The notes under the pieces were generated by a model that saw only the letters and a program-made list of their open reading frames with translations, was not told where the DNA came from and searched no databases. 56,478 bases of DNA from Hornefia butyriciproducens (GTDB lineage Bacteria > Bacillota > Clostridia > Peptostreptococcales > Anaerovoracaceae). A program made the position numbers and the translations under genes. This document shows, piece after piece, positions 12,080-53,570 of the stretch; position 1 is the first letter of the stretch, and each line of letters begins with the position of its first letter. Location: contig NZ_VUMZ01000012.1 of assembly GCF_009695915.1 (NCBI RefSeq), positions 1-56,478 on the forward strand, given 5' to 3'.

Positions 12080-12108
12080 ATAACAATTATATCATCTAAT
12101 AAGTTTCA

Positions 12109-13205: not shown

Positions 13206-13224
13206 AAAACACCCCATAAATAAG

Positions 13225-15205: not shown

Positions 15206-15468
15206 AAATAGTGTCTGCTCATTAAGTTCCCGTCGGAATTAATGGGCGCTGACGGCAGTTTGTCAGCAGCGCCGCGGCGCACCATCCAATGGAAGGGTGC
15301 GCCGGCAGACACTACTTGATGCTTGTGCTCAGGGATTCGGCCGTTTCCGAATCCCACTGCCGCAAGGTTTTCGGATGAAACGTCTGAAAACCCTGCAGCG
15401 GGCTACCGAATATGTTCTTTGTATTATTGATATTTCAAGCATATTCGATAGCTGAGCACGTATTAAAT
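15206..15468 (+). repeat. Tandem-cloverleaf repeat, copy A (modules 1+2)
   Basis: 263 bases, the same length as copy D. Module 1 (15206-15317, 112 nt) has outer arms AGTGTCTGC (15210-15218) and GCAGACACT (15305-15313). Module 2 (15314-15468, 155 nt) has outer arms GTGCTCAG (15325-15332) and CTGAGCAC (15452-15459), and contains the perfect hairpin GGGATTCGG/CCGAATCCC (15332-15355) and a 14-base-pair hairpin 15403-15416 with 15438-15451 containing one mismatch. This copy has several stem mismatches that copy D lacks. It lies between the terminator at 15156 and the isochorismatase promoter. Confidence 0.85.
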
Positions 15469-16402: not shown

Positions 16403-16557
16403 AATTAATGCGTGCTCAGCTATCGAATATGCTTGAAATATCAATAATATGAAGAGCATATTCGATAGCCTGCCGCAAGGTTTTCAAGCGTTTCATCCGA
16501 AAACCTTGCGGCGGTGGGATTCGGAAACGGCCGAATCCCTGAGCACAAGCATCAATT
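16403..16557 (-). repeat. Cloverleaf repeat, copy B (module 2 only, inverted)
   Basis: 155 bases, exactly the length of module 2 in copies A and D. Read on the minus strand it matches module 2 of copy D at about 150 of 155 positions. Outer arms are AATTAATGC-GTGCTCAG (16403-16419) and CTGAGCAC-AA-GCATCAATT (16539-16557). Its presence alone shows that module 2 is a separate unit with its own terminal inverted repeats. It directly abuts the abiEii remnant. Confidence 0.85.
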
Positions 16558-16878: not shown

Positions 16879-17036
16879 ACGGCAATATCTGCTATTTATG
16901 ATCGGGCGGAGGCGTTAAGCTGTATTCTGCGCATTATAATTTCCATTATTTTCTACTGTTAATCCACTACATATAGTGCTATAATAGGTGATGCAACGCA
17001 CATGATGTGCTGTTCGCAAAACAATCTGAATTTAAT
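16879..17036. other. Upstream region of nrdJ
   Basis: No gene. A TATAAT hexamer at 16980-16985 is a possible -10 for nrdJ but its -35 (TGTTAA) is poor. A transcript from here would carry the whole of cloverleaf copy C as its 5' leader. Confidence 0.3.
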
Positions 17037-17308
17037 CAGTGCCTGCTCATCAAGTTCCCGTCGGACTTAATGGGTGCTGACGGCAGTTCACGGCAGTGCT
17101 GCGGTGCGCCGTCCGATGGCAGTCTGCGGCGCGTCAACTACCGGCGCACGCTCGCCGCCTTTGTTGAAGTTGTCGGGGCCTGCGGCTCGCTGTGTATCAG
17201 TGGCACCCGCTTGCCGGTCGCGGGCTCATCCGTCGTGTGACAATCGCTCGCCCAGCGCCCGCCAACAGTCGGAAGGACTCGCTCGACGACCGAGGTGGGC
17301 AGGAACTG
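17037..17308 (+). repeat. Cloverleaf repeat, copy C (expanded module 1)
   Basis: The first ~75 bases follow module 1 of copies A and D, including the AAGTTC-CCGTC-GGACTT hairpin. The interior then diverges and is about 160 bases longer. The outer stem is still closed: CAGTGCCTGC (17037-17046) against GCAGGAACTG (17299-17308), 9 of 10 paired. GTGCGCCG (17104-17111) pairs with CGGCGCAC (17142-17149). It ends about 30 bases before the nrdJ start, so it would form the leader of that mRNA. Confidence 0.6.
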
Positions 17309-17339
17309 TAATAATGGAAATGGAAAAGGAGTTGGAATC

Positions 17340-30082: not shown

Positions 30083-30111
30083 GTCACATAACTGTTTACT
30101 GAGGTGGGAAA

Positions 30112-30798
30112 ATGAAGAAGCTCAAAAGGATACTGCTCGTATCCATATGCGTTATTTTAGCCTCATTCGGTCTGTTTAGACTGAGCGTATATATCTTTGA
30201 CAACAGCACAAGCGTCAAAGGGATAGAGCAGGCAAAAATATCCATCATAGATTGGGATGGAGAAGGGTATTATGTCGACGATTACTGGCATACAACATTT
30301 GACGAAAAGAGCATGATAAAAATGGTGAAAGAGGCAGGAAAAGACATGTCTCATCGTAGTAAGTGGTATTATGCAGAGATTGAAGGGAAATTTCATTTCA
30401 GAATCGTGTATAAGTGCCTGCTGGGACTAAAGGTAACGAGAACATATCACATGGATTACACGGAATTAAAAAAGCTCAAAGCCTTTGAGAAATTATATGA
30501 AGCAAAAGGCTTCAAGGAAAAATTCCTGCTTTCCGGCACAGAGAGAGGAAAGAAGTACTGTTATGATGAGAATGGAAAAAAAGTCTCCAAAGAACTGTTG
30601 AAGAATTTAGATTTGGATTTCTTGGAAAGAAAGTATGATCAGGAGCATTTCGGTGAAGAGGATTGCGAAGATTATAGTAGCTACAGTGTTACCTTATATC
30701 CAAAGCGTGGTGATTACATGGATTATATTGCTCCTGCTATTTACAAGACCGATAAGCATACACCGAAATGGTTGAAAGAGCATGGAGGTAAGTATTAG
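30112..30798 (+). CDS. Membrane-anchored protein, paralogue 1; candidate immunity protein
   Basis: 228 residues. One N-terminal membrane segment (about 7-27) is followed by an extracytoplasmic domain. I do not recognise the family. It is clearly paralogous to the gene at 30985: both share IFDN(S/G)T, (V/I)DDxWxxxF, KMIKMV/SMIKMV, HFRIVYK and a C-terminal KTD(K/R)HTxKWLK. It starts 29 bases after the protease-toxin fusion, the usual place for an immunity gene, and the membrane anchor would put it where a secreted phospholipase-like toxin acts. Immunity is inferred from layout only. Confidence 0.55.
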   Translation: MKKLKRILLVSICVILASFGLFRLSVYIFDNSTSVKGIEQAKISIIDWDGEGYYVDDYWHTTFDEKSMIKMVKEAGKDMSHRSKWYYAEIEGKFHFRIVYKCLLGLKVTRTYHMDYTELKKLKAFEKLYEAKGFKEKFLLSGTERGKKYCYDENGKKVSKELLKNLDLDFLERKYDQEHFGEEDCEDYSSYSVTLYPKRGDYMDYIAPAIYKTDKHTPKWLKEHGGKY

Positions 30799-30817
30799 GA
30801 ACAATTCATATAAACCG

Positions 30818-30954
30818 CACACTATAACAGATGCGTTTGCACATGTGACCTGTAAAACTGGAATATTAACAGACTGAAATCTTTTGCCGAGGCTGCAAAG
30901 GTAGAGCATGCAGAAAGTCTGAAATACTTTGGAAAAATATCGGTGATTAAGTAA
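30818..30954 (+). pseudogene. Relic of the fusion protein C-terminus
   Basis: Starts with HTITDAFAHVT-coding sequence equivalent to the AHxxDAFAH region of the upstream gene, then jumps by deletion and a frameshift to its last 30 codons (about 95% identical DNA through GGAAAAATATCGGT) and stop at 30952-30954. About 250 bases are missing in between. It lies between the two paralogous anchored proteins, so one toxin-end-plus-partner cassette has been duplicated and then decayed. Confidence 0.8.
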
Positions 30955-30984
30955 GGTGTTCAGTCTTTGCAAGGAGAGCGCGGG

Positions 30985-36447: not shown

Positions 36448-38526
36448 ATGAACCAGACCAGAGACTTTGGTGAAAACAGAGTGCTGGAACCACAGTATGT
36501 TCTGCCGACATCAGCCTGGAAGCTTGATAACCGGAGGGAAATCGAGCCCTTTGAGATGCGTGTGAGGCTGAAGAAAATCCACATTGAAGGCACGAGCTTC
36601 AAGCAGATCCGGATGGAAGCGAACGACAATGACGAGAAAATCAAACAGAAAATCATCGATATCGTGATCCGTCGCGGCAAGCTGCACAATCCGGTGACGG
36701 ACACCGGCGGGCTCGCCTACGGCACCGTCGAGGAAATCGGACCGGAGTATGAGAACCGTCTTGGACTCTCTCCGGGAGACGATGTGATCTGTAACGCGTC
36801 GCTGACGACGATTCCTATTTATATCGACAAAGTGATATCCGTTGACCGCGCCTTCGGGCAGGCGGACGTGGAGGGCTACACGATTCTCTATTCCAGAATT
36901 CCTGTGGTACGGAAGGCAGAAGATGTTCCGATGAATCTGATGCTGTACGCGCTGAACGAGTCGGGGACCCTGCTGAAGGTCAGTAATATTGCGGTGGGAA
37001 AACGGAAATTCCTGGTAGTGGGAAACGACGAGCTGACAAATATTTTCTACGGTTACGCTATCCGGAAGATTGCCAGAGAGGATGCAGAGATTATCTGCCT
37101 TCTGGACCGCAAGACAGAGTCCGTGCTGCAGGGCAGCTCGATGGAGCGCCTGATGGAGAAGGTCTTCACCGAGGTGCGGATGGTCGATATTCTGAAGCCG
37201 ATGGAATGTCTGGCGGAGCTGCGGGATCGTGCCCCCTTCGATCTGACGGTGAACTGTGCGGATATTCCGGGGGCTGAAACCATCAACATTCTGGCTACCC
37301 GCGAAGGCGGGACCGTAATGTTCGCAAATCTGATTAACAACTACAATATTGCTTTGTACATCACAGAGTCTATCTCTAAGCGGCTGAACGTCCTCTGCGC
37401 CGACGGGTACAGCGAGGTCTACGACCGGTTCGACGTGGAGCTGGTCCGCGATCTGGCGCCGTATGTGGAACGGGCGGTGGAGGCGAACGTGCAGCTGGAC
37501 GATGATCCGGCCTATCCGGTGGACCGCAAGAGCCGGCTGCGCGAGGTTTCCGGACAGCGGCAGACCATGCTGGAGGATTTTGTGTGCGAAAGCCGTGCGA
37601 TGGCGGCGGTTCTGGACGAGATCCTTACGGTTTCTCGATACGACTGCAACGTGCTGATCGCCGGGGACACGGGGGTCGGCAAGGAGAAGGTCGCCAACAT
37701 CATCTACAAAAATAGCATGCGGAAGATGCAGCCGTTCATCAAGGTGAACTGCGCATCGATTACTTCCGACCTGATAGAAAGCGAGTTCTTCGGCTGTGAA
37801 GAGGGGGCGATGGGCGAGAAACGCCCCGGCGGCCGGAAGGGGTATTTCGAGCTGGCGGATAACGGAACTGTTTTCCTGGACGATGTGGGCGAGCTTTCCC
37901 AGGATATGCAGGCCAAACTTCTGCGCGTGATTCAGGACGGTGAGTTCCGCAGAGTCGGCGGGAGCGTGCCGGTGAAAACTAACGTGAGGATTTTATCGGC
38001 AACGAATTGCGACCTGGAGGCGGCGATCGAAGACGGGAGCTTCCGACGGGATCTCTACTACCGGCTGAACGTGGTTCGCATACGGATCCCCAGCCTGAAG
38101 GACCGGCCCGGTGATATCCCGGCGCTGGTTCATCACTTCCTGAAGAAATACGGGAAGAAATTCGATATGAAACGGTACATCGACGAGGATGCGGTGGAAT
38201 ACCTGAAGCAGTGTGAATGGGAAGGGAATATCCGGGAGCTGGAGAATGTTGTGCAGCGCCTGATGATCAGCTCGGACCAGGAACAGATTACACTCCTGGA
38301 TGTGATGAAGGAACTGCACGGTGACGTCTTTGAGGCAGCGGCTCTGGACAGTGGAGATACAAAGGAAGACGGGCAGATCATGGATCTGGAGAAAATGGTC
38401 CAGAATTTCGAGAAAAACATTCTGAAGATGGCCTGTGAACAGTACGGCTCCACAAGAAAAGCGGCCAGGGCCGTCGGAATCAGCCAGACACAGCTGGTGC
38501 GGAAAAAGAAAAAGTATGACATCTGA
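36448..38526 (+). CDS. Enhancer-binding-type regulator with Kdd-like sensor domain
   Basis: 692 residues. Residues 1-355 are collinear with Kdd (39643): RV.P..VLP, KLHNPVTDTGG, GTVEEIGP, SLTTIPIYIDK, but the Rossmann glycine motif GGGGKSG is replaced by VVGNDEL, so NAD binding and catalysis are probably lost. Residues 375-620 are a sigma-54-type AAA+ module: Walker A GDTGVGKE (~405), Walker B VFLDDVGELS (~474), RRDLYYRLNV and LKDRPGDIPAL. The sigma-54-contacting GAFTGA loop reads GAMGEK (~452). A Fis-type HTH ends the protein (STRKAARAVGISQTQLVRKKK). It probably senses a lysine-pathway intermediate and controls kal and the kdd operon; like TyrR it may not need sigma-54. Confidence 0.85.
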   Translation: MNQTRDFGENRVLEPQYVLPTSAWKLDNRREIEPFEMRVRLKKIHIEGTSFKQIRMEANDNDEKIKQKIIDIVIRRGKLHNPVTDTGGLAYGTVEEIGPEYENRLGLSPGDDVICNASLTTIPIYIDKVISVDRAFGQADVEGYTILYSRIPVVRKAEDVPMNLMLYALNESGTLLKVSNIAVGKRKFLVVGNDELTNIFYGYAIRKIAREDAEIICLLDRKTESVLQGSSMERLMEKVFTEVRMVDILKPMECLAELRDRAPFDLTVNCADIPGAETINILATREGGTVMFANLINNYNIALYITESISKRLNVLCADGYSEVYDRFDVELVRDLAPYVERAVEANVQLDDDPAYPVDRKSRLREVSGQRQTMLEDFVCESRAMAAVLDEILTVSRYDCNVLIAGDTGVGKEKVANIIYKNSMRKMQPFIKVNCASITSDLIESEFFGCEEGAMGEKRPGGRKGYFELADNGTVFLDDVGELSQDMQAKLLRVIQDGEFRRVGGSVPVKTNVRILSATNCDLEAAIEDGSFRRDLYYRLNVVRIRIPSLKDRPGDIPALVHHFLKKYGKKFDMKRYIDEDAVEYLKQCEWEGNIRELENVVQRLMISSDQEQITLLDVMKELHGDVFEAAALDSGDTKEDGQIMDLEKMVQNFEKNILKMACEQYGSTRKAARAVGISQTQLVRKKKKYDI

Positions 38527-38612
38527 TACGCCTGGAGAGTTTCGGGAAACTGTTACGGGCTGCCGGGGGCTGATCTGCTCAGAGTTCAATCCCGGCAGTC
38601 CGTTCTGTTCTG

Positions 38613-38879
38613 TTAAGGGAGAAACAGATTTATCGCAATGCCGATGGCGACGCTGATGGAAAGCAATATAAGAAAAAGCTTTGCGTGAGACCTGCTGTTT
38701 GTCCGGCTGAGCATAATTACATAGGCAATTATTAAAAGGGCAGTATTTAATATAGCCGATAAGATGAGCACTGGCACGGTATCTGTCGAGACAAACCGGC
38801 AGGCGGCAAAAATGATGGCGTTGACGATGAATACGGCGACTCCCAGCATAAATACCTGTTTTCTGATACTGCTCTTCAT
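38613..38879 (-). CDS. Small membrane protein
   Basis: 88 residues with three hydrophobic stretches (about 9-26, 36-57 and 66-86). GGGG lies about 10 bases upstream of the ATG. I do not recognise it. It stands alone, convergent with the regulator gene. A perfect 16-base palindrome, GTGATATCGGTATCAC (38973-38988), lies in its upstream region and could be an operator. Confidence 0.5.
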   Translation of the reverse strand: MKSSIRKQVFMLGVAVFIVNAIIFAACRFVSTDTVPVLILSAILNTALLIIAYVIMLSRTNSRSHAKLFLILLSISVAIGIAINLFLP

Positions 38880-39096
38880 AGTTTTTTACCCCACACTTTA
38901 ATAACTTCGTAGGTTTCTTTTGCGTTCAAATAATCCCGTCTGGATTTGAAAAAATTCGGGGATACTCCACTTGTGATATCGGTATCACATTTCTGTACGA
39001 TAAGATAAATGTTAATATGCTTTTTTTAATGCAGCAAATACATATATATGCTCATCTGGTGCCATAGTGAAGCGCTTTGTATGTAAATTATATAAT
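38880..39096. other. Intergenic region with a perfect palindrome
   Basis: 217 bases without a gene. It contains GTGATATCGGTATCAC (38973-38988) and AT-rich DNA leading into cloverleaf copy D. Confidence 0.4.
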
Positions 39097-39359
39097 AATT
39101 AGTGTCTGCTCATCAAGTCCCCGTCGGACTTAATGGGCGCTGACGGCAGTTTTTCAGCAGCGCCGCGGCGCACCATCCAATGGAAGGGTGCGCCGGCAGA
39201 CACTAATTGATGCTTGTGCTCAGGGATTCGGCCGTTTCCGAATCCCACTGCCGCAAGGTTTTCGGGTGAAACGCTTGAAAACCTTGCGGCAGGCTATCGA
39301 ATATGCTCTTTGTATTATTGATATTTCAAGCATATTCGATGGCTGAGCACGCATTAATT
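39097..39359 (+). repeat. Tandem-cloverleaf repeat, copy D (best-paired copy)
   Basis: Module 1 (39097-39208): outer stem AATTAGTGTCTGC/GCAGACACTAATT, a perfect 13 base pairs; inside it hairpins 39115-39131 (AAGTCC/GGACTT), 39136-39164 (GGCGCTG/CAGCGCC) and 39166-39195 (CGGCGCACC/GGTGCGCCG). Module 2 (39205-39359): outer stem 39205-39223 with 39343-39359, 17 pairs with a TT bulge; inside it hairpins 39223-39246 (9 pairs), 39248-39292 (16 perfect pairs) and 39294-39342 (14 pairs). The modules share AATT at 39205-39208, and AATT also marks both outer ends. It ends about 115 bases before the regulator dyad of the kdd operon. Confidence 0.9.
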
Positions 39360-39474
39360 AGGAAAAATGTCAATATTTCCAGGAAATGCAATTCGCCTGC
39401 TTTGCATCTGCCGATTGTAAATGTAATCTCACTGAGCCAGGAGCGAACCGACATAGAATCACGCCCGTTTGCCT

Positions 39475-39494
39475 TTGAACACAATTCGGTTCAA
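39475..39494. promoter_or_regulatory. Candidate regulator-binding dyad, kdd side
   Basis: TTGAACACAATTCGGTTCAA, a dyad with TTGAAC/GTTCAA arms (8 of 10 pairs). It ends 44 bases before the kdd -35, centred near -90 from the expected start, identical to the geometry at kal. Confidence 0.7.
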
Positions 39495-39538
39495 TTGGCG
39501 AATAATCAAATTTTTCACAATCCCCGTGTACTTAATTG

Positions 39539-39567
39539 TGGACACGATTTCAGTTGGATTTTATAAT
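39539..39567 (+). promoter_or_regulatory. kdd operon promoter
   Basis: TGGACA (39539-39544), 17-base spacer, TATAAT (39562-39567); expected start near 39574, giving a leader of about 70 bases. I found no -24/-12 (TGGCAC-N5-TTGC) element in this region. Confidence 0.7.
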
Positions 39568-39642
39568 TAAGTTAATCGGAGAATTCCGATATCACGTAGT
39601 TTATATTAATTCAATCAATTTTCTATCTAGGAGGATACAACA

Positions 39643-40704
39643 ATGAAAAAAGGAAATCCATATGGAACACACAGAGTCATCTCCCCGAAGGGTGTTCTGC
39701 CGCAGCCGGCAGACGTTATCGACAACGATATGGAGATCTATGACAACGAAGTCAAGATCAACGTCAAGACCCTGAACATCGACTCTGCGTCATTCACATC
39801 TGTATGCGATCACGCATGTGGAAAGAAGCCTGCTGACATCACTTCCGACGAGGACAAGAAGGCAGTTGCGGACACCATGCTGGGCATTGTTGCTAAGGCA
39901 GGAAAGCATAAGAACCCCTGGACAGGTTCCGGCGGAATGCTGATCGGTACTGTTGAGGAAATCGGACCGAACTGGAAGGGTGACCTGAAGGTTGGCGACA
40001 AGATCGCTACACTGGTTTCTCTGTCCCTGACACCGCTGGTTATCGATGAGATTCTGGAGATGAGACCGGCTATCGACCAGGTTGACATCAAGGGTCATGC
40101 GATTCTGTTCCAGAGCGGCATCTATGCGAAGCTGCCTGACGATATGGAAGAGGGTCTGGCTCTGTCTGCTCTGGACGTTGCGGGAGCTCCGGCTCAGGCT
40201 GCGAAGCTCTGCCAGCTGGGACAGACTGTTCTGGTCATCGGCGGCGGCGGAAAATCCGGACTGCTGTGCCTGTATGAGGCAAAGAAGAGAGTCGGCGTTA
40301 CCGGTAAGGTTATCTGCGCTGCGGGATCTCAGAAATCTGAAGACAGAGCACGCAACCTGGATCTGGCGGACGAGTACTTCCACATGGATGCTACCGATGC
40401 GGTCGGCATGTATGAGAAGATCATGGAACTGACAGACGGACAGCTCTGCGACGTCGTTATCAACTGCGTTAACATCGAGAACACTGAGATGGCTTCCATC
40501 CTGACCTGCAAGGACGACGGAACCGTTTACTTCTTCTCCATGGCGACCAGCTTCACAAAGGCTGCTCTGGGCGCTGAGGGCGTAGGCAAGGACGTCAACA
40601 TGATCATCGGAAACGGCTACACCAAGGGCCACGCGGAGGTTACTCTGCAGGTACTGAGAGAGCATGACGGAATCCGCAAGCTCTTCCAGGAAATGTATGC
40701 GTAA
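39643..40704 (+). CDS. kdd: L-erythro-3,5-diaminohexanoate dehydrogenase
   Basis: 353 residues. Rossmann motif VLVIGGGGKSGLLCLYEA near residues 200-217, N-terminal RVISPKGVLPQP, KHKNPWTGSGGMLIGTVEEIGP and SLTPLVIDEI all match Kdd. It oxidises and deaminates 3,5-diaminohexanoate with NAD(P) to 3-keto-5-aminohexanoate. AGGAGG precedes the ATG. It is the first gene of the operon kdd-kamA-kamB-kamC-kamD-kamE. The regulator upstream contains a degenerate copy of this enzyme. A strong hairpin follows it (40767-40790). Confidence 0.93.
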   Translation: MKKGNPYGTHRVISPKGVLPQPADVIDNDMEIYDNEVKINVKTLNIDSASFTSVCDHACGKKPADITSDEDKKAVADTMLGIVAKAGKHKNPWTGSGGMLIGTVEEIGPNWKGDLKVGDKIATLVSLSLTPLVIDEILEMRPAIDQVDIKGHAILFQSGIYAKLPDDMEEGLALSALDVAGAPAQAAKLCQLGQTVLVIGGGGKSGLLCLYEAKKRVGVTGKVICAAGSQKSEDRARNLDLADEYFHMDATDAVGMYEKIMELTDGQLCDVVINCVNIENTEMASILTCKDDGTVYFFSMATSFTKAALGAEGVGKDVNMIIGNGYTKGHAEVTLQVLREHDGIRKLFQEMYA

Positions 40705-40766
40705 GCATAGACAACAAAGGGCAATTTAACTGTACCTCATAAAACTTTAAACATTTAACAAATGCG

Positions 40767-40790
40767 CGGCCGGCGTTCCGGCCGCGCGAA
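40767..40790 (+). other. Stable hairpin between kdd and kamA
   Basis: GCGCGGCCGG, loop CGTT, CCGGCCGCGC: a perfect 10-base-pair stem followed by GAAAAAT rather than a U-tract. It may stabilise the kdd message or attenuate read-through. About 70 bases on, TTCGTTT and AAACGAA can also pair just before the kamA ribosome binding site. Confidence 0.6.
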
Positions 40791-40890
40791 AAATCCTGAG
40801 AATATAATCATACGAAAATCCAAGAAATTAAAAGAACTACTGCGTTTCGTTTAAAAAATTTAAGAAACAAACGAAGATAGGAGATTTATT

Positions 40891-42162
40891 ATGGCAATCA
40901 GAAATTGGAAGGACATTCCTTTGTTCAAGGATGTCACGGATGAGCAGTGGAACGATTGGCACTGGCAGGTATCCCACAGACTCTCAACGGTAGAGGATAT
41001 CGCTCAGGTTGTGAATCTGACAGATCAGGAAAAGGCTGACATCGAGAAGGTTATGGGCGGATTCCGCGTCGGAATCACTCCGTACTATGCTTCTCTGATG
41101 GATCCGGATGATCCGAGAGACCCGGTCAGAATGCAGGCTGTTCCGACGCTGGCAGAGATGCACAGATCGGAAGCGGACGATGCGGACCCGCTGCATGAGG
41201 ATTCCGATTCTCCGGCTCCGGGACTGACCCACAGATATCCGGACAGAGTGCTGTTCCTGATTACGGACCAGTGTTCCATGTACTGCCGTCACTGCACCAG
41301 AAGAAGACTGGCCGGCGAAACTGACGGAGCGAGATCCAGAGAAGACATCGACGCGTGTATCGATTACATCAGACGGACTCCGCAGGTCAGAGACGTCCTG
41401 CTGTCCGGCGGCGACGCGCTCTGCGTTGAGGACGACACGCTGGAGTACATCATCAGCGAGCTGAGAAAGATCGACCACGTTGAAATCGTCAGACTCGGTT
41501 CCAGAACGCCGGTGGTTATGCCGATGCGTATTACGGACAACCTGGTCAACATGCTGAAGAAATATCACCCGGTATGGCTGAATACACACTTCAACCATCC
41601 GAAGGAAATGACTCCGGACGCGGCGGAAGCATGCCGCAAGCTGGCTGATGCGGGTATTCCGCTCGGAAACCAGTCCGTACTGCTGAGAGGCGTCAACGAC
41701 TGCAAGCACATCATGAGAGACTTGGTACACGTGCTGGTCAAGAACAGAGTCAGACCGTACTACATCTACATCTGCGACCTGTCCGTCGGCATCGAGCACT
41801 TCAGAACCTCCGTTGCCAAGGGCATCGAGATTATCGAGGGTCTGAGAGGACATACTTCCGGATACTGCGTACCGACCTTTGTTGTCGACGCTCCGGGAGG
41901 CGGCGGAAAGACGCCGGTACAGCCTCAGTACGTAATCTCCGAGACGCCGGACAAGGTGATCCTGAGAAACTACGAAGGCGTTATCACCACGTACACGCAG
42001 CCGCATCTGCCTGATCTGCCGTGCAAATGCGACTACTGCACCGGGAAGAAGACCTACAAGTATGAAGGCGTTTCCGCTCTGGGCGAAGGACTCCAGATTA
42101 AATCCATGGAGCCGGCGCACCTGGCGAGACATGAAAGAAACGCGAAGAACAAGCAGAAATAA
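40891..42162 (+). CDS. kamA: L-lysine 2,3-aminomutase
   Basis: 423 residues. Radical SAM cluster motif CSMYCRHCTRRR near residue 130, SGGDALCVEDDTLEYI, and the PLP-binding lysine in VDAPGGGGKTPVQPQY. A C-terminal Cys cluster (CKCDYCTGKK) resembles the zinc site of clostridial enzymes. It converts L-lysine to L-beta-lysine, the first step of fermentation. TAGGAG precedes the ATG. The length and all motifs are as in the clostridial enzyme. Confidence 0.95.
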   Translation: MAIRNWKDIPLFKDVTDEQWNDWHWQVSHRLSTVEDIAQVVNLTDQEKADIEKVMGGFRVGITPYYASLMDPDDPRDPVRMQAVPTLAEMHRSEADDADPLHEDSDSPAPGLTHRYPDRVLFLITDQCSMYCRHCTRRRLAGETDGARSREDIDACIDYIRRTPQVRDVLLSGGDALCVEDDTLEYIISELRKIDHVEIVRLGSRTPVVMPMRITDNLVNMLKKYHPVWLNTHFNHPKEMTPDAAEACRKLADAGIPLGNQSVLLRGVNDCKHIMRDLVHVLVKNRVRPYYIYICDLSVGIEHFRTSVAKGIEIIEGLRGHTSGYCVPTFVVDAPGGGGKTPVQPQYVISETPDKVILRNYEGVITTYTQPHLPDLPCKCDYCTGKKTYKYEGVSALGEGLQIKSMEPAHLARHERNAKNKQK

Positions 42163-42196
42163 GAGGGCGTCTGCCTGAGCAGACCCGAAGAAAAAC

Positions 42197-42226
42197 GACA
42201 TAGGGAGGCTTCGGTCTCCCTATGTC
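42197..42226 (+). other. UUCG hairpin overlapping the first possible kamB start
   Basis: GACATAGGGAG (42197-42207) pairs perfectly with CTCCCTATGTC (42216-42226). The loop closes further to C-TTCG-G, a UUCG tetraloop. The 5' arm holds GGGAGG and the 3' arm holds the ATG at 42222. Confidence 0.75.
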
Positions 42227-43277
42227 ATTCAAGAATATCCACAGGCAACAATCAATTATGGGCTTATTATACGATCTGTCAACTGAATACAAGACACTGT
42301 CTATTGTCGGCATGGCGAAAAACGCCGGGAAGACCACCGCGCTGAACTATCTGATCGAGGAAGCGGATGACGAAATGATCAGACTCGGAATCACATCCAC
42401 AGGGCGGGACGGGGAAACCTCCGACCTGGTGACGGGAACGGAGAAGCCCCGGGTGTACCTTTATGAGGACACGATTGTTTCCGTTCCGGCGCAGCTGTAT
42501 GAGCTGGCTGAGGCGGGGCTGGAGATTCTGGAGCTGACAAAGTTCGGTACGGCGATCGGAGACATCATGCTCTGCCGCGTCGTGGAGAGCGGGTATGTGC
42601 AGATTGCCGGACCCGTGGCGACCGCAGACAACAAAAAAATGTGCGCCCGGATGTTTGATTTCGGTGCGGAACTGATTCTGATCGACGGTGCCATCGACAG
42701 GAAGTCCATTGCAGCGCCGGAAACATCGGACGCAATTATTTTGTCGACCGGAGCGGTTCTCTCCAGGAGCCTGAAAAAAGTGGTGGAGGAAACCTCCCAC
42801 ATCGTCAATCTGTATCGGCTTCCGGAACTTGAGGACGAAACGGCCCGGAAGGCACTGGCGGAGACGCGCGGAGAAGAGCGTGTGACGCTGATTGACAGAG
42901 ACGGCGGCGTGCAGCGGCTGGAGCTGGCTACCGGACTCGGCGGCAGTCGTTTTATCGACGACGCGATTACGGAAGACACGCAGTATGTATATATCCCGGG
43001 GGCTTTTACAAACAGCGTGATCGCCGATATTCAGCCGGAGAAGCTGAAGAGAGTCAGGTTCATTCTGAAGGATCCCACAAGGATCTTCATCAATGTAATG
43101 GACTGGAGGCAGCTGATCAAGCGCGGATTCTCGGTAAGCGTCCTGAAGAACATCAGGATTGCGGCGGTGACCGTCAATCCTTTTTCGCCGGGCGGATATT
43201 CGTTTGAACATGGAGTGCTGAGAGATACAATGCAGGAAGCGCTTCCCGACATACCGGTTATCGATGTGAGAATGTAG
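42222..43277 (+). CDS. kamB: Lysine 5,6-aminomutase reactivase subunit KamB
   Basis: 351 residues if started at 42222; a shorter start at 42258 (MGLLYDLSTEYK, 339 residues) is plausible because the first ATG and its GGGAGG are buried in a UUCG hairpin. A P-loop GMAKNAGKTT lies near the N-terminus (residues 30-39), so it should bind nucleotide. Position between kamA and the MutS-like kamC, and general features, match KamB, which with KamC is thought to restore B12 inactivated during KamDE turnover. Identification rests on context and P-loop rather than a detailed domain match. Confidence 0.78.
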   Translation: MSFKNIHRQQSIMGLLYDLSTEYKTLSIVGMAKNAGKTTALNYLIEEADDEMIRLGITSTGRDGETSDLVTGTEKPRVYLYEDTIVSVPAQLYELAEAGLEILELTKFGTAIGDIMLCRVVESGYVQIAGPVATADNKKMCARMFDFGAELILIDGAIDRKSIAAPETSDAIILSTGAVLSRSLKKVVEETSHIVNLYRLPELEDETARKALAETRGEERVTLIDRDGGVQRLELATGLGGSRFIDDAITEDTQYVYIPGAFTNSVIADIQPEKLKRVRFILKDPTRIFINVMDWRQLIKRGFSVSVLKNIRIAAVTVNPFSPGGYSFEHGVLRDTMQEALPDIPVIDVRM

Positions 43278-43294
43278 TCAGAAAGGGAGTAGAC

Positions 43295-44938
43295 ATGAAG
43301 CAGGGTTCTAACAGAAGGCTGGCCAATGTGAAGACCAGGACGGAGACGGGTTTTGAGTATGTCATGGCTCATCTGGATCTGAATACGCCTTTTGGAAAGA
43401 AACTCCTGAAAGAGAGAAAACCGTTTTATCCCGGTGAGGAGAACGAACTGCGGCACGAGCTGGACAAGGTCGAAGACATGATGAAATTTGTCCGGGAAAG
43501 TGACCGTCAGGTTTCAAGAATACAGGAGACCTTCATGGAAATGAAGGATCTTTCCTACACGATCCGGAGAAGTCACAGAAATGCGTTGTCGGTGCTGGAA
43601 CTGTTTGAGGTGAAGACGATGCTTCTGCAGATGCAGAAGATCGAAAAGCTTTGCGCACAGACAGAAAGCCCGGTGCCGAAGGAGTATGTTCTGGACGACG
43701 TGACACCCCTGCTGGACAGGCTGGACCCCAGAGGAGATCGACTTAACACATTCTACATCTACGATGATTTTTCGGAAAAACTGGCTGAGCTGCGGAAGGA
43801 GAAGCATCGCTACGAGATTCTGATCCGCAGAACACAGAAGGCCAGAAAGGAAGAAATCCGGAAGGAATACGGTATCGTACTGACGCCGAAATTCGATGTC
43901 ATCATTTCCAGGTCCAGCGAGGATCTGGAGAAAGCAAGACAGATAAAGGACCTGGAGCAGATTTCGGAAGATTATATGTCAGTCACGTTTGAACTGACAA
44001 AATCGGACAAGGTTTATGAACTCGTCAGAGACATGGAAGAGGTCAACGGCGAGATTGAGGAAGAAGAGTTGAGAATACGGGAGCTTCTCTCGCAGGAGGT
44101 GGCCTCCTGCGAGGAGCTTCTGACTGAGAATTGTGGAAAGATAGGAGCTCTGGATCTTGCTCTTGCGAAAGCAATCTATGGAATCAGGCATGATTGTGTC
44201 AAACCGGAAATTGTCGAGGAGCACGTTGTTGAATTTGAGGAGGGCAGACACCTGCAGGTAGAAGAGGTCCTGCATTCCAAAGGAAAAGAGTACTGTCCCG
44301 TCAGCATTGCGCTGACGGACGGCGTGACCTGCATCACAGGCGCCAATATGGGTGGCAAGACGATTTCGCTGAAATTGTCTGGTCTGGTGCCGATGCTGGC
44401 CCAATACGGATTCTTTGTCCCTTGCAGGAGGGCGAGAATCGGATTATCGAATTATATGCAGATTCTGATTGGCGACAGTCAGTCTGTGGAACGCGGCTTA
44501 TCCAGCTTCGGAAGTGAAATGGAGGAGCTGAAGGAGATTCTGGACAACAGTCAGGACCGTTCTCTGATCCTGATCGATGAGATTGCCAGCGGAACCAACC
44601 CGATTGAAGGGCTGGCTCTGACCAGGAGCCTGATCGATTATCTGAAGGTCCGCAGCTATATCTCACTGATCACTACACATTTCGACGCGGTAACTGAAGA
44701 ACGCGATATCAAGAACATGCAGGTTCGCGGGCTGGCCGACGTGGATTTCAGAAAGCTGGACAGTGAACTTCATCTTGCAAACAGAAGAGAAAGAATAAAT
44801 ATTATTTCCCGGTATATGGACTATCGATTATATACGGTGACAGAAAACAGAGAGATCCCGAAGGACGCTCTGAATATCGCTAAGATGCTGGGCCTCAATG
44901 AGGAAATCATCGAAGGCGCCAAAAAGTATATTAAGTAA
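43295..44938 (+). CDS. kamC: Lysine 5,6-aminomutase reactivase ATPase KamC (MutS-like)
   Basis: 547 residues with a MutS-type ATPase at the C-terminus: Walker A TGANMGGKTISLK near 350, VERGLSSFGSEMEEL, Walker B RSLILIDEIASGTNP and SLITTHFDAV. The N-terminal half is coiled and lacks mismatch-recognition domains, so it is not a repair MutS. AAGGGAG precedes the ATG; kamD follows after 12 bases. In lysine-fermenting bacteria this gene lies beside kamDE and is annotated as the ATPase of the aminomutase reactivase. Activity is inferred from that conserved context. Confidence 0.85.
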   Translation: MKQGSNRRLANVKTRTETGFEYVMAHLDLNTPFGKKLLKERKPFYPGEENELRHELDKVEDMMKFVRESDRQVSRIQETFMEMKDLSYTIRRSHRNALSVLELFEVKTMLLQMQKIEKLCAQTESPVPKEYVLDDVTPLLDRLDPRGDRLNTFYIYDDFSEKLAELRKEKHRYEILIRRTQKARKEEIRKEYGIVLTPKFDVIISRSSEDLEKARQIKDLEQISEDYMSVTFELTKSDKVYELVRDMEEVNGEIEEEELRIRELLSQEVASCEELLTENCGKIGALDLALAKAIYGIRHDCVKPEIVEEHVVEFEEGRHLQVEEVLHSKGKEYCPVSIALTDGVTCITGANMGGKTISLKLSGLVPMLAQYGFFVPCRRARIGLSNYMQILIGDSQSVERGLSSFGSEMEELKEILDNSQDRSLILIDEIASGTNPIEGLALTRSLIDYLKVRSYISLITTHFDAVTEERDIKNMQVRGLADVDFRKLDSELHLANRRERINIISRYMDYRLYTVTENREIPKDALNIAKMLGLNEEIIEGAKKYIK

Positions 44939-44950
44939 GGAGATAACAGG

Positions 44951-46507
44951 ATGAAAAGCAAATTGAACATTGATCCTAAAATGGTCGACAGCGCGCGTCA
45001 GCACGCCGCTAATGTGGCCAGGGACATGCAGGAATTCATCGACGTACATACGACAGTAAGTACGGAGAGAACCGTCCTGAGACTGCTGGGGGTGGACGGC
45101 ATTGACGATGTCGAAACTCCGCTTCCGAATGTCATTGTAGAGCAGATCCAGGCGGCCGGCGGCCTCCCGCGCGGCGCAGCGTACTGGATGGGCAACGCAA
45201 TGATTCAGACGGGACTGAAGCCCCAGGAGATCGCAGAAAAGGTGGGCGCGGGTGAGCTGGATATCACCAAGCTTGACACTGTTTCTGCAAAAGAAGCGGA
45301 AGAGGCGATTATGCCGATTGTGCATGAGTCTCTGAAGAAAATCAAGGCGCAGACTGCCAAGAGAAATGAATATATTGAGCGTCTGGGTGAAGGCAGCAGA
45401 CCGTATCTGTATGTTATCGTCGCGACCGGAAACATCTATGAGGACGTTGTCCAGGCGAAGGCGGCGGCGAGACAGGGCGCGGATATTATCGCTGTAATCA
45501 GAACCACAGCGCAGTCCCTGCTGGATTACGTACCTTACGGACCGACCACAGAAGGATTCGGAGGAACCTACGCAACGCAGGAGAACTTCCGCATCATGAG
45601 AAAGGCACTGGATGAAGTCGGAGAGGAAGTCGGCAGATACATCCGTCTGTGCAACTATTCCTCCGGTATGTGTATGCCGGAGATCGCAGCCATGGGCGCC
45701 ATCGAGAGACTGGACGTCATGCTGAACGACGCGATTTACGGAATTCTGTTCCGTGACATCAATATGCAGAGAACCATCGTTGACCAGTATTTCAGCCGTG
45801 TGATCATTGGCTACTGCGGAATCATCTTCAATTCCGGAGAGGACAACTATCTGACCACCGACGACGCTTTCGAGGCGGCGCATACCGTCACAGCGTCCCA
45901 GTTCATCAATGAGCAGTTCGCGGTTCTGGCCAACATTCCAGAGGAACAGATGGGACTCGGCCATGCCTTCGAGATGGACCCGATGATGGAGGACGGCTTC
46001 CTGTACGAGCTGGCGCAGGCTGTTATGGCCAAGGAGATTTTCCCGAACGCAAGCCTCAAGTACATGCCGCCGACAAAGTTCATGACCGGAAATATTTTCC
46101 GCGGACATATTCAGGATGCGCTGTTTAATCTGGTTTCCATCTGGAGCGGACAGTCGCTGCAGCTCCTCGGCATGATGACCGAGGCGATTCTGACGCCGCA
46201 TATGCAGGACCGGTATCTGTCCATTGAGAACGCTCAGTACATCTTCAACAACGCCAGACACATCGGCGACGAGGTGGAGTTCAAGAAGGATGGTATCATC
46301 CAGAAGAGAGCTCAGCTCGTTCTGTCCAAGGCTAACGACCTGCTGGCGGAGGTTGAAAAGGACGGCCTGTTCTCGACAATCGAACAGGGTAAATTCGGCG
46401 GAGTCAAAAGACCTAAGGATGGCGGACACGGACTGGACGGCGTCTGCTCGAAGGACGACCAGTACTTCAATCCGTTCATTCCTCTGATGAAAGAAGGTGC
46501 AGAATAA
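44951..46507 (+). CDS. kamD: Lysine 5,6-aminomutase alpha subunit
   Basis: 518 residues, the normal size of the large subunit. Segments such as GLPRGAAYWMGNAMIQTGL, RPYLYVIVATGNIYEDVVQAKAAARQGADIIAVIRTTAQSLLDYVPYG and NYSSGMCMPEIAAMGAIERLDVMLND form the TIM-barrel that holds the PLP-substrate adduct. With KamE it moves the terminal amino group of beta-lysine (or D-lysine) using adenosylcobalamin and PLP. GGAG precedes the ATG. The stop and the kamE start overlap (TAATG). Confidence 0.95.
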   Translation: MKSKLNIDPKMVDSARQHAANVARDMQEFIDVHTTVSTERTVLRLLGVDGIDDVETPLPNVIVEQIQAAGGLPRGAAYWMGNAMIQTGLKPQEIAEKVGAGELDITKLDTVSAKEAEEAIMPIVHESLKKIKAQTAKRNEYIERLGEGSRPYLYVIVATGNIYEDVVQAKAAARQGADIIAVIRTTAQSLLDYVPYGPTTEGFGGTYATQENFRIMRKALDEVGEEVGRYIRLCNYSSGMCMPEIAAMGAIERLDVMLNDAIYGILFRDINMQRTIVDQYFSRVIIGYCGIIFNSGEDNYLTTDDAFEAAHTVTASQFINEQFAVLANIPEEQMGLGHAFEMDPMMEDGFLYELAQAVMAKEIFPNASLKYMPPTKFMTGNIFRGHIQDALFNLVSIWSGQSLQLLGMMTEAILTPHMQDRYLSIENAQYIFNNARHIGDEVEFKKDGIIQKRAQLVLSKANDLLAEVEKDGLFSTIEQGKFGGVKRPKDGGHGLDGVCSKDDQYFNPFIPLMKEGAE

Positions 46508-47307
46508 TGGCAGATAAGAATTGTGCTGCGGCAATTGCTCAGGTCGATCTGACAAAGGTCAAGCCTTACGGCGACACTTTGAACGATGGCTATATGGAAC
46601 TCGCTTTTACTCTCCCGGTACCATACGGCGAAGAGGCAGAGGAAGCTGCCAAGCAGTATGTGGTCAAGATGGGCATGGAGGAACCGAACGTAACCTACTA
46701 CCATGAACTCTGCCCGGGATATACATTCTTTGTTGTATACGCAAAGAGCACGCATACCGTAGACTTCACAAAGATCAAGGTCAAGAAGGTTGATGTCGAG
46801 GTGCTGGATCGTGTGGAATGCGGCAAATGGATCGAGGAAAACGTCGGCAGAGACATCGTCGTCGTCGGTGCATCCATCGAATCCGACGCGCACACAGTCG
46901 GTATCGATGCGATCATTCAGATGAAGGGCTTCCACGGACACTTCGGACTGGAACGTTTCAAGAATGTGGTTGCCTACAACATGGGTTCTCAGGTTCCCTG
47001 CGAGCAGCTGCTTGCAAAGGCCAGAGAGGTGAACGCGGATGCAATTCTGGTTTCCCAGACGGTTACGCAGAAAGACATTCACATCAAACAGCTGACCCAG
47101 ATGATCGAGCTGGTCGAGGCAGAAGGCCTCAGAGACAAGCTGATCTGCACCTGCGGCGGACCGAGAATTTCTCATGAGCTGGCACAGGAGCTTGGCTATG
47201 ATGCCGGATTCGGGCCGGGAAAATATGCAGAGCATGTAATGTCCTTCATCATGGAGGAAGTCGTGAAGCGCGGCTGGCAGAAGAAACCGAAAATCGAAGA
47301 CAGATAA
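46507..47307 (+). CDS. kamE: Lysine 5,6-aminomutase beta subunit (B12-binding)
   Basis: 266 residues. The cobalamin-binding motif DxHxxG appears as SDAHTVGIDAII near residue 124, preceded by DIVVVGASIE of the Rossmann-like B12 domain. The N-terminal dimerisation part (about 1-100) carries the usual KPYGDTLNDGYMELAFTLPVPYG segment. It supplies the cobalamin and, by family knowledge, the PLP lysine of the heterodimer. Coupled to kamD by TAATG. A terminator at 47338-47375 follows, ending the kdd operon. Confidence 0.94.
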   Translation: MADKNCAAAIAQVDLTKVKPYGDTLNDGYMELAFTLPVPYGEEAEEAAKQYVVKMGMEEPNVTYYHELCPGYTFFVVYAKSTHTVDFTKIKVKKVDVEVLDRVECGKWIEENVGRDIVVVGASIESDAHTVGIDAIIQMKGFHGHFGLERFKNVVAYNMGSQVPCEQLLAKAREVNADAILVSQTVTQKDIHIKQLTQMIELVEAEGLRDKLICTCGGPRISHELAQELGYDAGFGPGKYAEHVMSFIMEEVVKRGWQKKPKIEDR

Positions 47308-47375
47308 CACATCTTGTGTTAAAAAATGAACAAAATTGCGTAAGCGTTGAAATTTAGCGGTTTCGACGCTTGCGC
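47306..47375 (+). terminator. Terminator region after kamE
   Basis: AACACA-TCT-TGTGTT (47306-47320) is a small perfect hairpin. GCGTAAGCGT (47338-47347) pairs with ACGCTTGCGC (47366-47375) with one G-T pair and is followed by CATATTTTG. Overlapping its left arm, ATGAACAAAATT resembles half of the regulator dyad, 47 bases before the next -35. Confidence 0.6.
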
Positions 47376-47392
47376 CATATTTTGATAAATTG

Positions 47393-47421
47393 TTGACAAC
47401 TTATATCTCCGAGACTATAAT
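47393..47421 (+). promoter_or_regulatory. Consensus promoter of the atoE-atoD-atoA unit
   Basis: TTGACA (47393-47398), 17-base spacer, TATAAT (47416-47421). A leader hairpin GCAGCAG-GGGA-CTGCTGC (47428-47445) lies just after the expected start. Confidence 0.8.
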
Positions 47422-47493
47422 GTAGTTGCAGCAGGGGACTGCTGCGGGAAGAATTTTTATTATTGATATATTATAGTTATAAGGAGAAGTGAG

Positions 47494-48864
47494 ATGTTCA
47501 AGAAATTAACTGACGGCTGCGTTCATCTGGTGAACCGCTATCTGCCGGATCCGTTCATTTTCTGTATTATCCTGACGATCGTCGTGTTCATCGGCGCACT
47601 GCCGGCGACACATGCCGGCGTTATCGCCGTAATTAACGCATGGGGCGTGGGAGTATGGAATCTGCTGGCGTTCTCGATGCAGATGGTTCTGGTTCTGGTA
47701 CTGGGCAGCGCATTCGCAAACGCGCCGGCGATCAAGAAGCTGATTGCCAGAATCGCAAGTATCGCCAAGACGCCGATACAGGCGATTATCGTTGTTACGT
47801 TTTTCTCACTGCTGGCCTGCTGGCTGAACTGGGGTTTCGGCCTGGTTGTCGGAGCTATTCTGGCTAAAGAGCTGGCGAGACAGGTCAAGGGAGTCGATTA
47901 CAGACTGCTGATCGCTTCAGCCTATTCAGGTTTTGTGGTATGGCACGCCGGAATTTCCGGATCGATCCCGCTTGCGCTGGCGACTCCGGACGCACCGGGA
48001 GCACCGGGAGCTCTGGCGGCGGCTACCGGAGGGGCGGTAACTCATATCATTTCCACCTCGCAGACGATCTTTGCGCCGTGGAACCTGATCTGCTGCCTGA
48101 TCATTCTGGTATGTCTGCCGTTCATCAACGCTAAGATGCATCCGGCTCCGGGAGAGGCAATCACTGTTGACCCGAAGCTGCTTGCAGAGGCGCAGATCGA
48201 ATACGCCGCTCCGGTGACCCCAGCTGAGAAAATGGAGAACAGCGTGATATGCTCAGCGATTATCGCAATCGCGGGACTGGTGTACCTGGTTTACTATTTT
48301 GCGACCTCCGGATTCAACCTGTCGCTGAATATTGTAAACTTCATTTTCCTGATTTTGGGAATTATCTTCCACAAGACGCCGATCGGATATGTGAGGGCAA
48401 TTGCGGATTCCGCGAAGGGCGCTGCGGGCATCATCCTTCAGTTCCCGTTCTATGCGGGCATCATGGGAATGATGACCTTCGCTCCGGAAGGCGGCACTTC
48501 CCTGGCAGGCGTGATCAGTAATTTCTTCGTATCGATTTCGAACAATGTGACGTTCCCGCTGTTCACATTCCTGTCCGCAGGAATCGTAAACTTCTTTGTA
48601 CCCTCCGGCGGAGGCCAGTGGGCGGTACAGGGTCCGATCATGATGCCGGCCGGACTGAAGCTGGGAGTCGATCCGAGCATTACCGGAATGGCCATTGCCT
48701 GGGGTGACGCGTGGACCAACATGATCCAGCCGTTCTGGGCACTGCCGGCACTGGGAATTGCCGGACTTTCAGCAAGAGATATTATGGGATATTGCTTGAT
48801 AACATTGTTCTTTGTTGGTATAGTAGTATGTGGAGGTTTCGTAGTCGTAGGACTGATGGCCTGA
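47494..48864 (+). CDS. Short-chain fatty acid transporter (AtoE family)
   Basis: 456 residues with about 12 membrane helices. N-terminal YLPDPFIFCIILTIVVF, NWGFGLVVGAILAKELAR and IVNFFVPSGGGQWAVQGPIMMPA match the AtoE family. It likely exports butyrate or acetate made by lysine fermentation, or imports short-chain acids or acetoacetate as CoA acceptors. It has its own strong promoter and AAGGAG site, and precedes atoD by 71 bases; the three genes probably form one transcript. Confidence 0.85.
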   Translation: MFKKLTDGCVHLVNRYLPDPFIFCIILTIVVFIGALPATHAGVIAVINAWGVGVWNLLAFSMQMVLVLVLGSAFANAPAIKKLIARIASIAKTPIQAIIVVTFFSLLACWLNWGFGLVVGAILAKELARQVKGVDYRLLIASAYSGFVVWHAGISGSIPLALATPDAPGAPGALAAATGGAVTHIISTSQTIFAPWNLICCLIILVCLPFINAKMHPAPGEAITVDPKLLAEAQIEYAAPVTPAEKMENSVICSAIIAIAGLVYLVYYFATSGFNLSLNIVNFIFLILGIIFHKTPIGYVRAIADSAKGAAGIILQFPFYAGIMGMMTFAPEGGTSLAGVISNFFVSISNNVTFPLFTFLSAGIVNFFVPSGGGQWAVQGPIMMPAGLKLGVDPSITGMAIAWGDAWTNMIQPFWALPALGIAGLSARDIMGYCLITLFFVGIVVCGGFVVVGLMA

Positions 48865-48935
48865 CGCTTTCGTGAAGCCGGAGATCCTGGGGAGACGGTC
48901 TTCCATGACTAAAATTTATAGAAAGGTGATTTATT

Positions 48936-49658
48936 ATGATTGACAAAGTAATTACTGCCGATGAAGCAGTTGCTGGCGTTAAAGACGGTATGACCATCAT
49001 GATCGGTGGCTTCCTCGGAACAGGTTCCCCGGAAATCCTGATGGATGCGCTTGTCAGAAAAGGCGTCAAGCACTTGACTGTAATCGCAAATGACGGCGGA
49101 CTGGATGTCGGACAGCCGGCGAACGGCCCCGGAAAGACCCCGAGAGGCGTAGGCAAGCTCCTTGTCGGCCATCAGGTTGACCACATCATCGCTTCCCATC
49201 TGGGCGTAAACCCGAAACTGAACGAGCAGTTCGCTGAGGGAACTCTGACCTATACGCTGGTACCGCAGGGTACGCTGGCTGAGAAGATCAGAGCGGCCAG
49301 CTACGGACTGGGCGGCGTTCTGACCCCGACCGGTCTGGGAACTCCGATGGAGACCGAGAAGGACGAGCTGGGCAGAGACAAGATGACCATTGAAATCGAT
49401 GGAAAGCGCTTCCTGCTGGAGAGACCTCTGCACGCGGATTACGCCTTCTGCAGAGCTTCCGTCTGCGACAGATTCGGCAACTTCATGAGCGCCAAGGCAA
49501 CCAAGAACTATAACTACGTTATGGCCGGCGCTGCGGATCACGTTGTCGTCGCGACGGAGAAGCTGGTCGAGATCGGCGAGGTTGATCCGGATACATTTGA
49601 CGTTGCAGGCGTACTTGTAGATGATGTTGTGGAAGGAGAACCAAAATGGCAGATATAA
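48936..49658 (+). CDS. atoD: Butyrate-acetoacetate CoA-transferase subunit A
   Basis: 240 residues, alpha subunit of a family I CoA-transferase. GMTIMIGGFLGTGSPEILMDAL is the N-terminal CoA-binding signature, and HVVVATEKLVEIGEVDPD closes the domain. It works with AtoA to transfer CoA from butyryl-CoA to acetoacetate or 3-keto acid substrates in lysine fermentation. AAAGGTG precedes the ATG; it overlaps atoA by 13 bases. Confidence 0.92.
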   Translation: MIDKVITADEAVAGVKDGMTIMIGGFLGTGSPEILMDALVRKGVKHLTVIANDGGLDVGQPANGPGKTPRGVGKLLVGHQVDHIIASHLGVNPKLNEQFAEGTLTYTLVPQGTLAEKIRAASYGLGGVLTPTGLGTPMETEKDELGRDKMTIEIDGKRFLLERPLHADYAFCRASVCDRFGNFMSAKATKNYNYVMAGAADHVVVATEKLVEIGEVDPDTFDVAGVLVDDVVEGEPKWQI

Positions 49659-53445: not shown

Positions 53446-53455
53446 ATGACGGTAT

Positions 53456-53570
53456 CCTTATCAAGAGTGGCGGAGGGAATAGGCCCTTTGATGCCCGGCA
53501 ACCTGGATGCGGCGCAATAAGGCGCTGCCGGCAAGGTGCTACGTCCTACAGTATATCTGAGAGATGAGGA
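53456..53570 (+). promoter_or_regulatory. SAM-I (S-box) riboswitch
   Basis: CCTTATCAAGAG opens the element, followed by GGCGGAGGGA, CCCTTTGATGCCCGGCAACC and later GCCGGCAAGGTGCTA, and it closes with GAGAGATGAGG, which pairs with the first bases as helix P1. These are the conserved S-box segments in the right order. SAM binding should favour the terminator just downstream and so switch off metK, the SAM-synthesis gene. Confidence 0.92.

Follow-up and report, generated by a model that had tools for sequence, protein, structure and literature searches.

The dispersed repeat carried several times by the Hornefia butyriciproducens window (the whole stretch of 56,478 nucleotides analysed here) is probably a type II MITE: a non-autonomous transposable element about 255 bp long, with further forms of about 165 and 45 bp, which would be moved in trans by an IS5-type (DUF772/DDE) transposase. 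Its ends and its targets tie it to an IS5-type insertion sequence (IS), and it combines a conserved two-cloverleaf fold with one-sided, promoter-proximal insertion. The initial annotation, based on the copy that we call copy D, had already suggested a non-autonomous mobile element. This suggestion is supported by the terminal inverted repeats, the target duplications, the empty orthologous sites and the ends shared with a transposase-bearing IS. Below, G000 is the genome of the window (2.44 Mb, 28 contigs), G007 that of a sister species (2.80 Mb) and G005 that of a third species of the genus; G186 and G226 belong to a second and a third genus. The features of the window that bear on the argument are the following.

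15206..15468, + strand: copy A, full length, with an AAAT duplication on both sides; the same insertion is present in G007 and in the MAG contig ONLK01000116.1 (RUG409) (sequence comparison)
16403..16557, - strand: copy B, module 2 alone, 97% identical to copy D (sequence comparison)
17034..17131, + strand: copy C, a decayed module 1 located 5' of the gene at 17295-19643 (sequence comparison)
39091..39096, + strand: TATAAT, a -10-like box directly 5' of the left end of copy D, with a weak -35 match in this copy (sequence; left versus right flank counts)
39097..39100, no strand: left target duplication AATT, matching 39356-39359 (direct left/right match in other copies with unusual letters, AAAC, AAGT and AAGC)
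39101..39355, + strand: copy D, element proper, 255 bp, with left inverted repeat AGTGTCTGCTCA, six hairpins and right inverted repeat TGAGCACGCATT (ends from 27 distinct near-complete copies, orthologues included, and from empty sites)
39097..39208, + strand: module 1, outer stem and hairpins 39111-39135, 39136-39164 and 39166-39195 (fold; module 1 covariation)
39205..39208, + strand: junction tetranucleotide AATT between the modules, frequently the reverse complement of the tetranucleotide at the target (comparison of 30 copies with permutations)
39205..39359, + strand: module 2, outer stem and hairpins 39223-39246, 39248-39292 and 39293-39343 (fold; whole-element covariation)
39356..39359, no strand: right target duplication AATT (comparison of copies)

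Under both RNA and DNA energy models, copy D (39097-39359) folds as two multi-hairpin modules, with a z of about -14 relative to shuffles. Its folding energy is -91.8 kcal/mol as DNA (shuffled -39.0, sd 3.8) and -154.3 kcal/mol as RNA (shuffled -81.5, sd 5.2), and none of 200 shuffles folded as well in either case. The two-module fold proposed in the initial annotation is confirmed by this folding and by direct reading. Module 1 has the announced outer stem of 13 pairs (AATTAGTGTCTGC/GCAGACACTAATT) and inner stems of 6 (AAGTCC/GGACTT), 7 (GGCGCTG/CAGCGCC) and 9 pairs (CGGCGCACC/GGTGCGCCG). For module 2, a bulged outer stem of 17 pairs and inner stems of 9, 16 and 14 had been announced; we find the outer stem (AATTGATGC-TT-GTGCTCAG/CTGAGCACGCATTAATT) with its 2-base bulge and one G.T pair, and inner stems of 9, 16 (21 when wobble pairs are included) and 14-15 pairs. 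Two corrections are needed. The modules had been described as abutting, but they overlap by the central AATT (39205-39208), which is common to both, so that the two outer stems cannot be complete simultaneously. Moreover, the whole extent folds as claimed, but the terminal AATT on each side (39097-39100 and 39356-39359) is best read as target duplication rather than as part of the element, which then runs from 39101 to 39355.

The surroundings of the copies deserve a brief description. Copy D lies between a regulator-like gene and a dehydrogenase-like gene of a cluster (36448-50311) that resembles lysine fermentation. The alpha subunit of lysine 5,6-aminomutase is recognised there at 44951-46507 (Pfam), with neighbours which we take to be lysine 2,3-aminomutase, 3,5-diaminohexanoate dehydrogenase and CoA-transferase subunits. 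Towards the start of the window, 716-13217 looks by eye like a defence island, with two helicase-like genes, a type III-like methylase/restriction pair, a Fic-like gene and an Abi-like gene. Finally, duplicated stretches (102 nt at 91% and 40 nt at 83%) occur at 29725-30955, in and after a subtilisin-like gene and beside two related small genes.

The limits of the element are given by its copies. In 27 distinct near-complete copies, orthologues included, it spans AGTG to GCATT, and its terminal inverted repeats are imperfect and 12 bp long (AGTGTCTGCTCA / AATGCGTGCTCA). The four bases on the left often recur at the right end, AAAC, AAGT, AAGC, AATA and ATTT being among the cases, and in other copies the two sides differ. 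The target duplication is 4 or 5 bp long in an AT-rich target, T-AATT-A (flank consensus T-AATT on the left, AATT-A on the right), and tandem copies have one duplication in common. Clean empty orthologous sites exist in G007 for two G000 insertions, L002 (AATA) and L003 (AATTT), and an approximate one for L006 (AATAT). These sites could reflect insertion in G000 or exact loss in G007; either way, the unit gained or lost is the element plus one duplication. Three other candidates were set aside. The L039 copy is full in G007, and its G000 site (L192) retains the first letters of the element, which points to a deletion between two TGTCT repeats; the G007 site of L004 is too diverged; and the G000 site of L047 contains a decayed copy. 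Copy D itself has no clean empty site, G007 lacking about 700 bp around its position.

Which transposase could act on these ends? A search with the left end led to an IS of G007 (L150, 586-2213) whose perfect 12-bp ends, AGTGTCTGCTCA, are identical to the left end of the element. Its transposase gene is broken; the pieces match the NCBIfam IS5 family (3e-78 and 1e-9), the larger one also Pfam DUF772, and beyond the terminal 12 bp the ends of this IS are unlike the repeat. A related IS in G012 has an intact frame of 479 aa, the only transposase that we saw whole, and another, in pieces, is flanked by AAATT on both sides in G003; no clean target duplication surrounds the G007 and G012 copies. 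Of 296 family genomes searched, 9 have a related transposase (E up to 1e-30). End sequences fitting A[G/A]T[G/A]NNTGCTCA are present at 7 of the 11 transposase loci scanned (6 distinct ones, L159 and L191 being the same G003 locus), for 0.13 chance matches expected. Two such ends are found in G007, G012 and G003 and one in G268, G225 and G162; the other 4 loci scanned, some at contig edges, have none. The right end of the element, AATGCGTGCTCA, is not identical to any IS end seen.

G000 retains two remnants of the IS left end (about 85% identity over 116 and 126 bp). Beside an IS5-type end remnant (L145) lie an IS1634-type transposase and an IS21 IstB gene, and an IS66 fragment was found at L140; since the remnant matches the IS5-type end beyond 12 bp, we read these three as neighbouring elements and not as the mobiliser. 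The search for an IS5-type transposase found none in the element carriers G000, G005, G186 and G226, and only G007 has both element and transposase gene, the latter broken. Among matches to the end patterns, one mismatch allowed, we saw by eye no left/right pair 0.4-6 kb apart that could delimit an autonomous element with both repeat-type ends; a pair about 6.1 kb apart on contig C1 was taken as probable chance.

The element is abundant in two sister species and rare elsewhere. BLAST gave at least 52 matches in G000 (from the 40 candidates scored out of 113; a few of the matches are palindromic arms read on the reverse strand), which merge to 45 separate places within the sequence stretches retrieved, 57 matches in G007 and 3, diverged, in G005; there was none in the other 14 genomes of the genus, nor in the 44 family and order genomes searched. 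The initial annotation had called for a covariance-model search of relatives: the module 1 model matched 4 of 247 family genomes (G000, G005, G186 and G226; G007 was not among the matches listed), with 10 matches in G186, several of them short, and 2 in G226, where only module 1 is recognised. An exact 20-mer of the repeat had three matches across genome contigs, of which one is genuine (L086) and two, from unrelated genomes, were put down to chance, and no match in viral contigs. The RUG409 contig ('uncultured Clostridiales bacterium'), which contains copy A, is 99.2% identical to the window across 880 of its 4,615 bases; RUG names presumably designate rumen MAGs.

The copies vary greatly in form. 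In the shorter form of about 165 bp, found at several places in G000 and G007, bases 1-103 are joined to about 191-262, and minimal forms of about 45 bp (L122 and L123) are reduced to the inverted repeats and hairpin 1, with AAAT or AAGC at either end. Internal deletions affect many copies, and some of these are deleted differently in G000 and G007. At two places (L096, G000:C3:5100-5600; L149, G007:C1:837400-838700), left-end copies or remnants face each other across about 175-400 bp of other sequence, and these could be composite insertions. The repeat codes for no protein, and its 255 bp leave no room for a transposase. Module 1 has 52-61% G+C in most copies of the genus. A limited search of the open-licence PMC literature returned no recognisable description of this repeat.

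The fold is kept while the letters change. Two G186 copies (L163 and L172) are complete, with two modules and six hairpins as in copy D, and their arms differ from those of copy D, notably in hairpins 2, 3 and 6. The islands common to these copies and copy D lie in the end region, in hairpin 1, at the junction (TTGATGCTTG.GCTC), in the loop of hairpin 4 (CCGTTTCCG) and, within hairpin 5, at GCAAG.TTTT. Among the incomplete G186 copies, L167 consists of module 1 only and L170 has, by eye, an insert in hairpin 4, as if the arms can take up DNA. Across the 24 full copies from three species, pairing holds in 93.3% of cells, and both sides have changed at 24 of 105 pairs, versus 10.3 in shuffles and 4-10 with partners slid. 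For module 1 alone, in 29 sequences from five genomes and three genera, whose alignment had been fitted to the structure, both sides have changed at 22 of 33 pairs, versus 11.3 shuffled and 4-9 slid. A loss of pairing in related copies would have spoken against the fold; pairing is largely kept. That a two-module, six-hairpin layout persists in a second genus after several arm sequences were replaced argues that something acts on the structure of a non-coding parasite.

This constraint is hardly visible in copies once they are inserted. Eight orthologous G000/G007 copy pairs differ by 2-14%, a divergence similar to or above that of their flanks where the flanks can be aligned; this is expected of inert insertions and counts for a MITE. 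In 22 copies, singletons per column are 0.35 in stems and 0.69 in loops, and when a singleton hits a formed pair, 29 of 65 keep the pair (22% expected from loop mutations) and 36 break it; the lower rate in stems hints at some, at most modest, constraint on inserted copies. Since inserted copies decay although several species and a second genus retain the layout, either the fold plays a part in how source copies spread, or the hairpins undergo templated repair, or both.

The second of these terms could by itself account for the compensatory changes, which would then come from mutation and not from selection: template-switching during replication of palindromes would copy one arm onto the other, so that hairpins are restored to perfect palindromes and even reach out into the target duplication. 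We regard this as possible, although we lean against it. The stem and loop singleton rates and the excess of pair-keeping singletons agree with it, selection being an equally possible cause; so does the match, described below, between junction letters and target letters that the element does not inherit. However, most singletons that hit a pair break it, mismatches persist at one hairpin 6 pair in 13 of 24 copies (columns 212-254), and the retention of six hairpins in a second genus is left unexplained. Template-switching bears on the maintenance of the fold, and the element may be a MITE all the same.

The position of the copies relative to genes and promoters is also peculiar. With codon-scored gene calls, no predicted gene contains any of 55 copies, and for the 49 copies with genes called on both sides, some orthologous pairs included, the downstream gene is co-directional with the element in 32 (two-sided p 0.044) and opposed in 17. 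A first count, on length-ranked ORFs, had shown no clear bias, but genes were mis-called and the codon-scored version was used instead. Of 78 distinct left flanks, 21 have an exact TATAAT whose last base is no more than 12 nt from the left end (shuffled mean 1.3, maximum 6 in 300 shuffles), versus none of 78 in a window further upstream and 1 of 54 near right ends read inward (Fisher p 7e-5 versus left ends). With one mismatch allowed, the counts are 49/78 on the left and 9/54 on the right. These flank sets were gathered by pattern and are uncurated: an internal reading (L036) and an IS remnant (L140), at the least, are among the left flanks, and some truncated or doubtful ends among the right ones. 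At the 21 TATAAT sites the -35 is enriched (sum 66 versus 52.4, sd 4.1, p 0.001), and at L003 the TATAAT is already present in the empty site. The left end therefore lies behind promoter-like sequence more often than an AT-rich composition explains by itself, and the orientation is almost always the same. Given the upstream TATAAT, the + strand of the element would stand at the start of transcripts.

Could the repeat then be a family of structured leader RNAs, cis-regulatory or protective for the host, spread mainly by duplication with genes? The covariation, which for module 1 extends across three genera, the promoter-like boxes with their enriched -35 and the excess of co-directional downstream genes are what such leaders would show, and to this extent the structured RNA offered as an alternative in the initial annotation gains from our results. 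It loses from the lack of any Rfam family above the gathering score at the element (the best matches reach 20 bits where 98 are required and 19 where 59 are), a result which also leaves the repeat without a match to a named Rfam family. The sole Rfam match in the window is a SAM riboswitch (RF00162, 69 bits) at 53455-53570, just 5' of the gene at 53536, whose product we assume to be an S-adenosylmethionine synthetase. Host leaders are also hard to reconcile with orthologous copies no better conserved than their flanks, with many internal deletions, some differing between sister genomes, with empty sites bearing target duplications and with the opposed downstream genes; moreover, the few downstream genes inspected by eye looked unrelated. 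We therefore hold this explanation to be very unlikely.

A further peculiarity links the element to its target. In 17 of 30 copies, the tetranucleotide of the left target and that of the junction are reverse complements of each other, versus 8.4 by permutation, and none of 20,000 permutations reached as high a count. The match persists without the two G186 AAAT copies (15/28 versus 8.6, p 0.00035) and in G000 and G007 only (13/24 versus 7.6, p 0.0013). The 30 copies are the full copies plus L034, L097, L100, L163, L167, L170 and L172; orthologues (one of which, L038, has no match), one tandem-internal copy and partial copies such as L016-L019 were left out, and L046 was retained although it too is in a tandem. 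At the three sites with an empty counterpart (AATA, ATTT and ATAT), the target letters do not pair exactly with the junction AATT, which argues against a strict guide and for later palindrome correction.

Pairing of this kind recalls REP/REPIN-like or IS200/IS605-like elements, in which single-stranded DNA is moved by a Y1 (HuH) transposase that recognises hairpins and the target is chosen by base pairing. The strong single-strand DNA fold, the covarying stems, the one-sided target preference and the above-chance pairing of a stem-adjoining tetranucleotide with the target all fit such elements, and two Y1 genes were found in G005. However, the search for a Y1/TnpA-like gene, recommended with the initial proposal of a structure-recognising REP-type transposase, found none in G000 or G007, the genomes richest in copies (the control search gave a signal in 5 of 14 named genomes). 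IS200/IS605 insertion is not known to make a target duplication, and one is present here; the ends match an IS5-type DDE element; and the empty-site insertions lack the exact pairing. This part of the earlier proposal is not sustained, and a Y1-driven element now appears highly improbable.

A more speculative scheme would combine these observations in a mobile element with a built-in guide. Selection for mobility would maintain the two cloverleaves, and the element, as RNA or as a single DNA strand, would direct insertion into melted promoter DNA (the -10 region of the open complex), with four target bases paired to the four bases that separate the cloverleaves; insertion would thus be one-sided with respect to promoters, and the element would become the 5' leader of the transcript. 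We consider this scheme improbable. If true, it would join guidance of the IS605 or bridge-RNA type to DDE-transposon ends and target duplications.

We return to the probable type II MITE, presumably dependent on an IS5-type IS. The IS5-type transposase would cut the ends of the element in trans. Hairpin integrity would be selected while source copies spread, possibly because mobility or host tolerance depends on the fold of the transcript or of the single DNA strand, and copies, once inserted, would decay under little constraint. The one-sided placement behind -10 boxes would stem from the insertion mechanism and would put the cloverleaves at the 5' end of host transcripts. Several points weigh against a MITE. 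In the sequences compared, the resemblance to the IS is limited to the terminal 12 bp and the AT-rich target choice; the empty sites could be precise losses; and covarying hairpins, one-sided -10 placement and target/junction pairing are not predicted by an ordinary MITE. To these are added several results given above: four carriers in which no IS5-type transposase was found, a right end identical to no IS end seen, four scanned loci without such ends, G007 and G012 IS copies without clean duplications, a duplication length of either 4 or 5 bp, and the low singleton rate in stems. Bacterial MITEs are usually regarded as degraded IS ends whose fold is incidental. The one-sided placement at -10 boxes points to a coupling of transposition with transcription initiation, and it would supply the host with ready-made structured leaders. 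Furthermore, with dozens of sites per sister genome, the family offers natural replicates for separating selection from palindrome-templated mutation.

Four known systems come closest. Type II MITEs of bacteria are shorter than 500 bp, with inverted repeats of 4-30 bp, flanking direct repeats and AT-rich intergenic targets (PMC10969869). The repeat resembles them in size, inverted repeats, direct repeats, targets, IS similarity at the ends only, many truncated copies and a strongly folding transcript (predicted here). Unlike the MITEs of that description, it is not AT-rich, it has six hairpins in two modules, a layout kept in a second genus with compensatory changes, and it lies, with a single orientation, behind -10 boxes. 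Pneumococcal BOX elements (PMC3049150), compared by layout description only, are likewise modular and multi-hairpin, with inverted repeats, target duplications and modules absent or multiplied, and are thought parasitic; however, they are built as boxA-boxB-boxC with a variable number of boxB, whereas the repeat has two three-hairpin modules. REP/REPIN-RAYT systems share the high copy number, the palindromic intergenic repeats and the strong fold, and differ by their Y1 gene, for which the two copy-rich genomes have no counterpart, by the target duplication and IS5-type ends seen here, and by the much greater length of the repeat. Finally, IS5-type IS with a DUF772/DDE transposase (NCBIfam NF033578) have ends of the form given above and AT-rich targets, and occur in the same genus and family, but they encode a transposase of about 480 aa, for which the repeat has no room, and the ends of the G007 IS differ from it beyond 12 bp.
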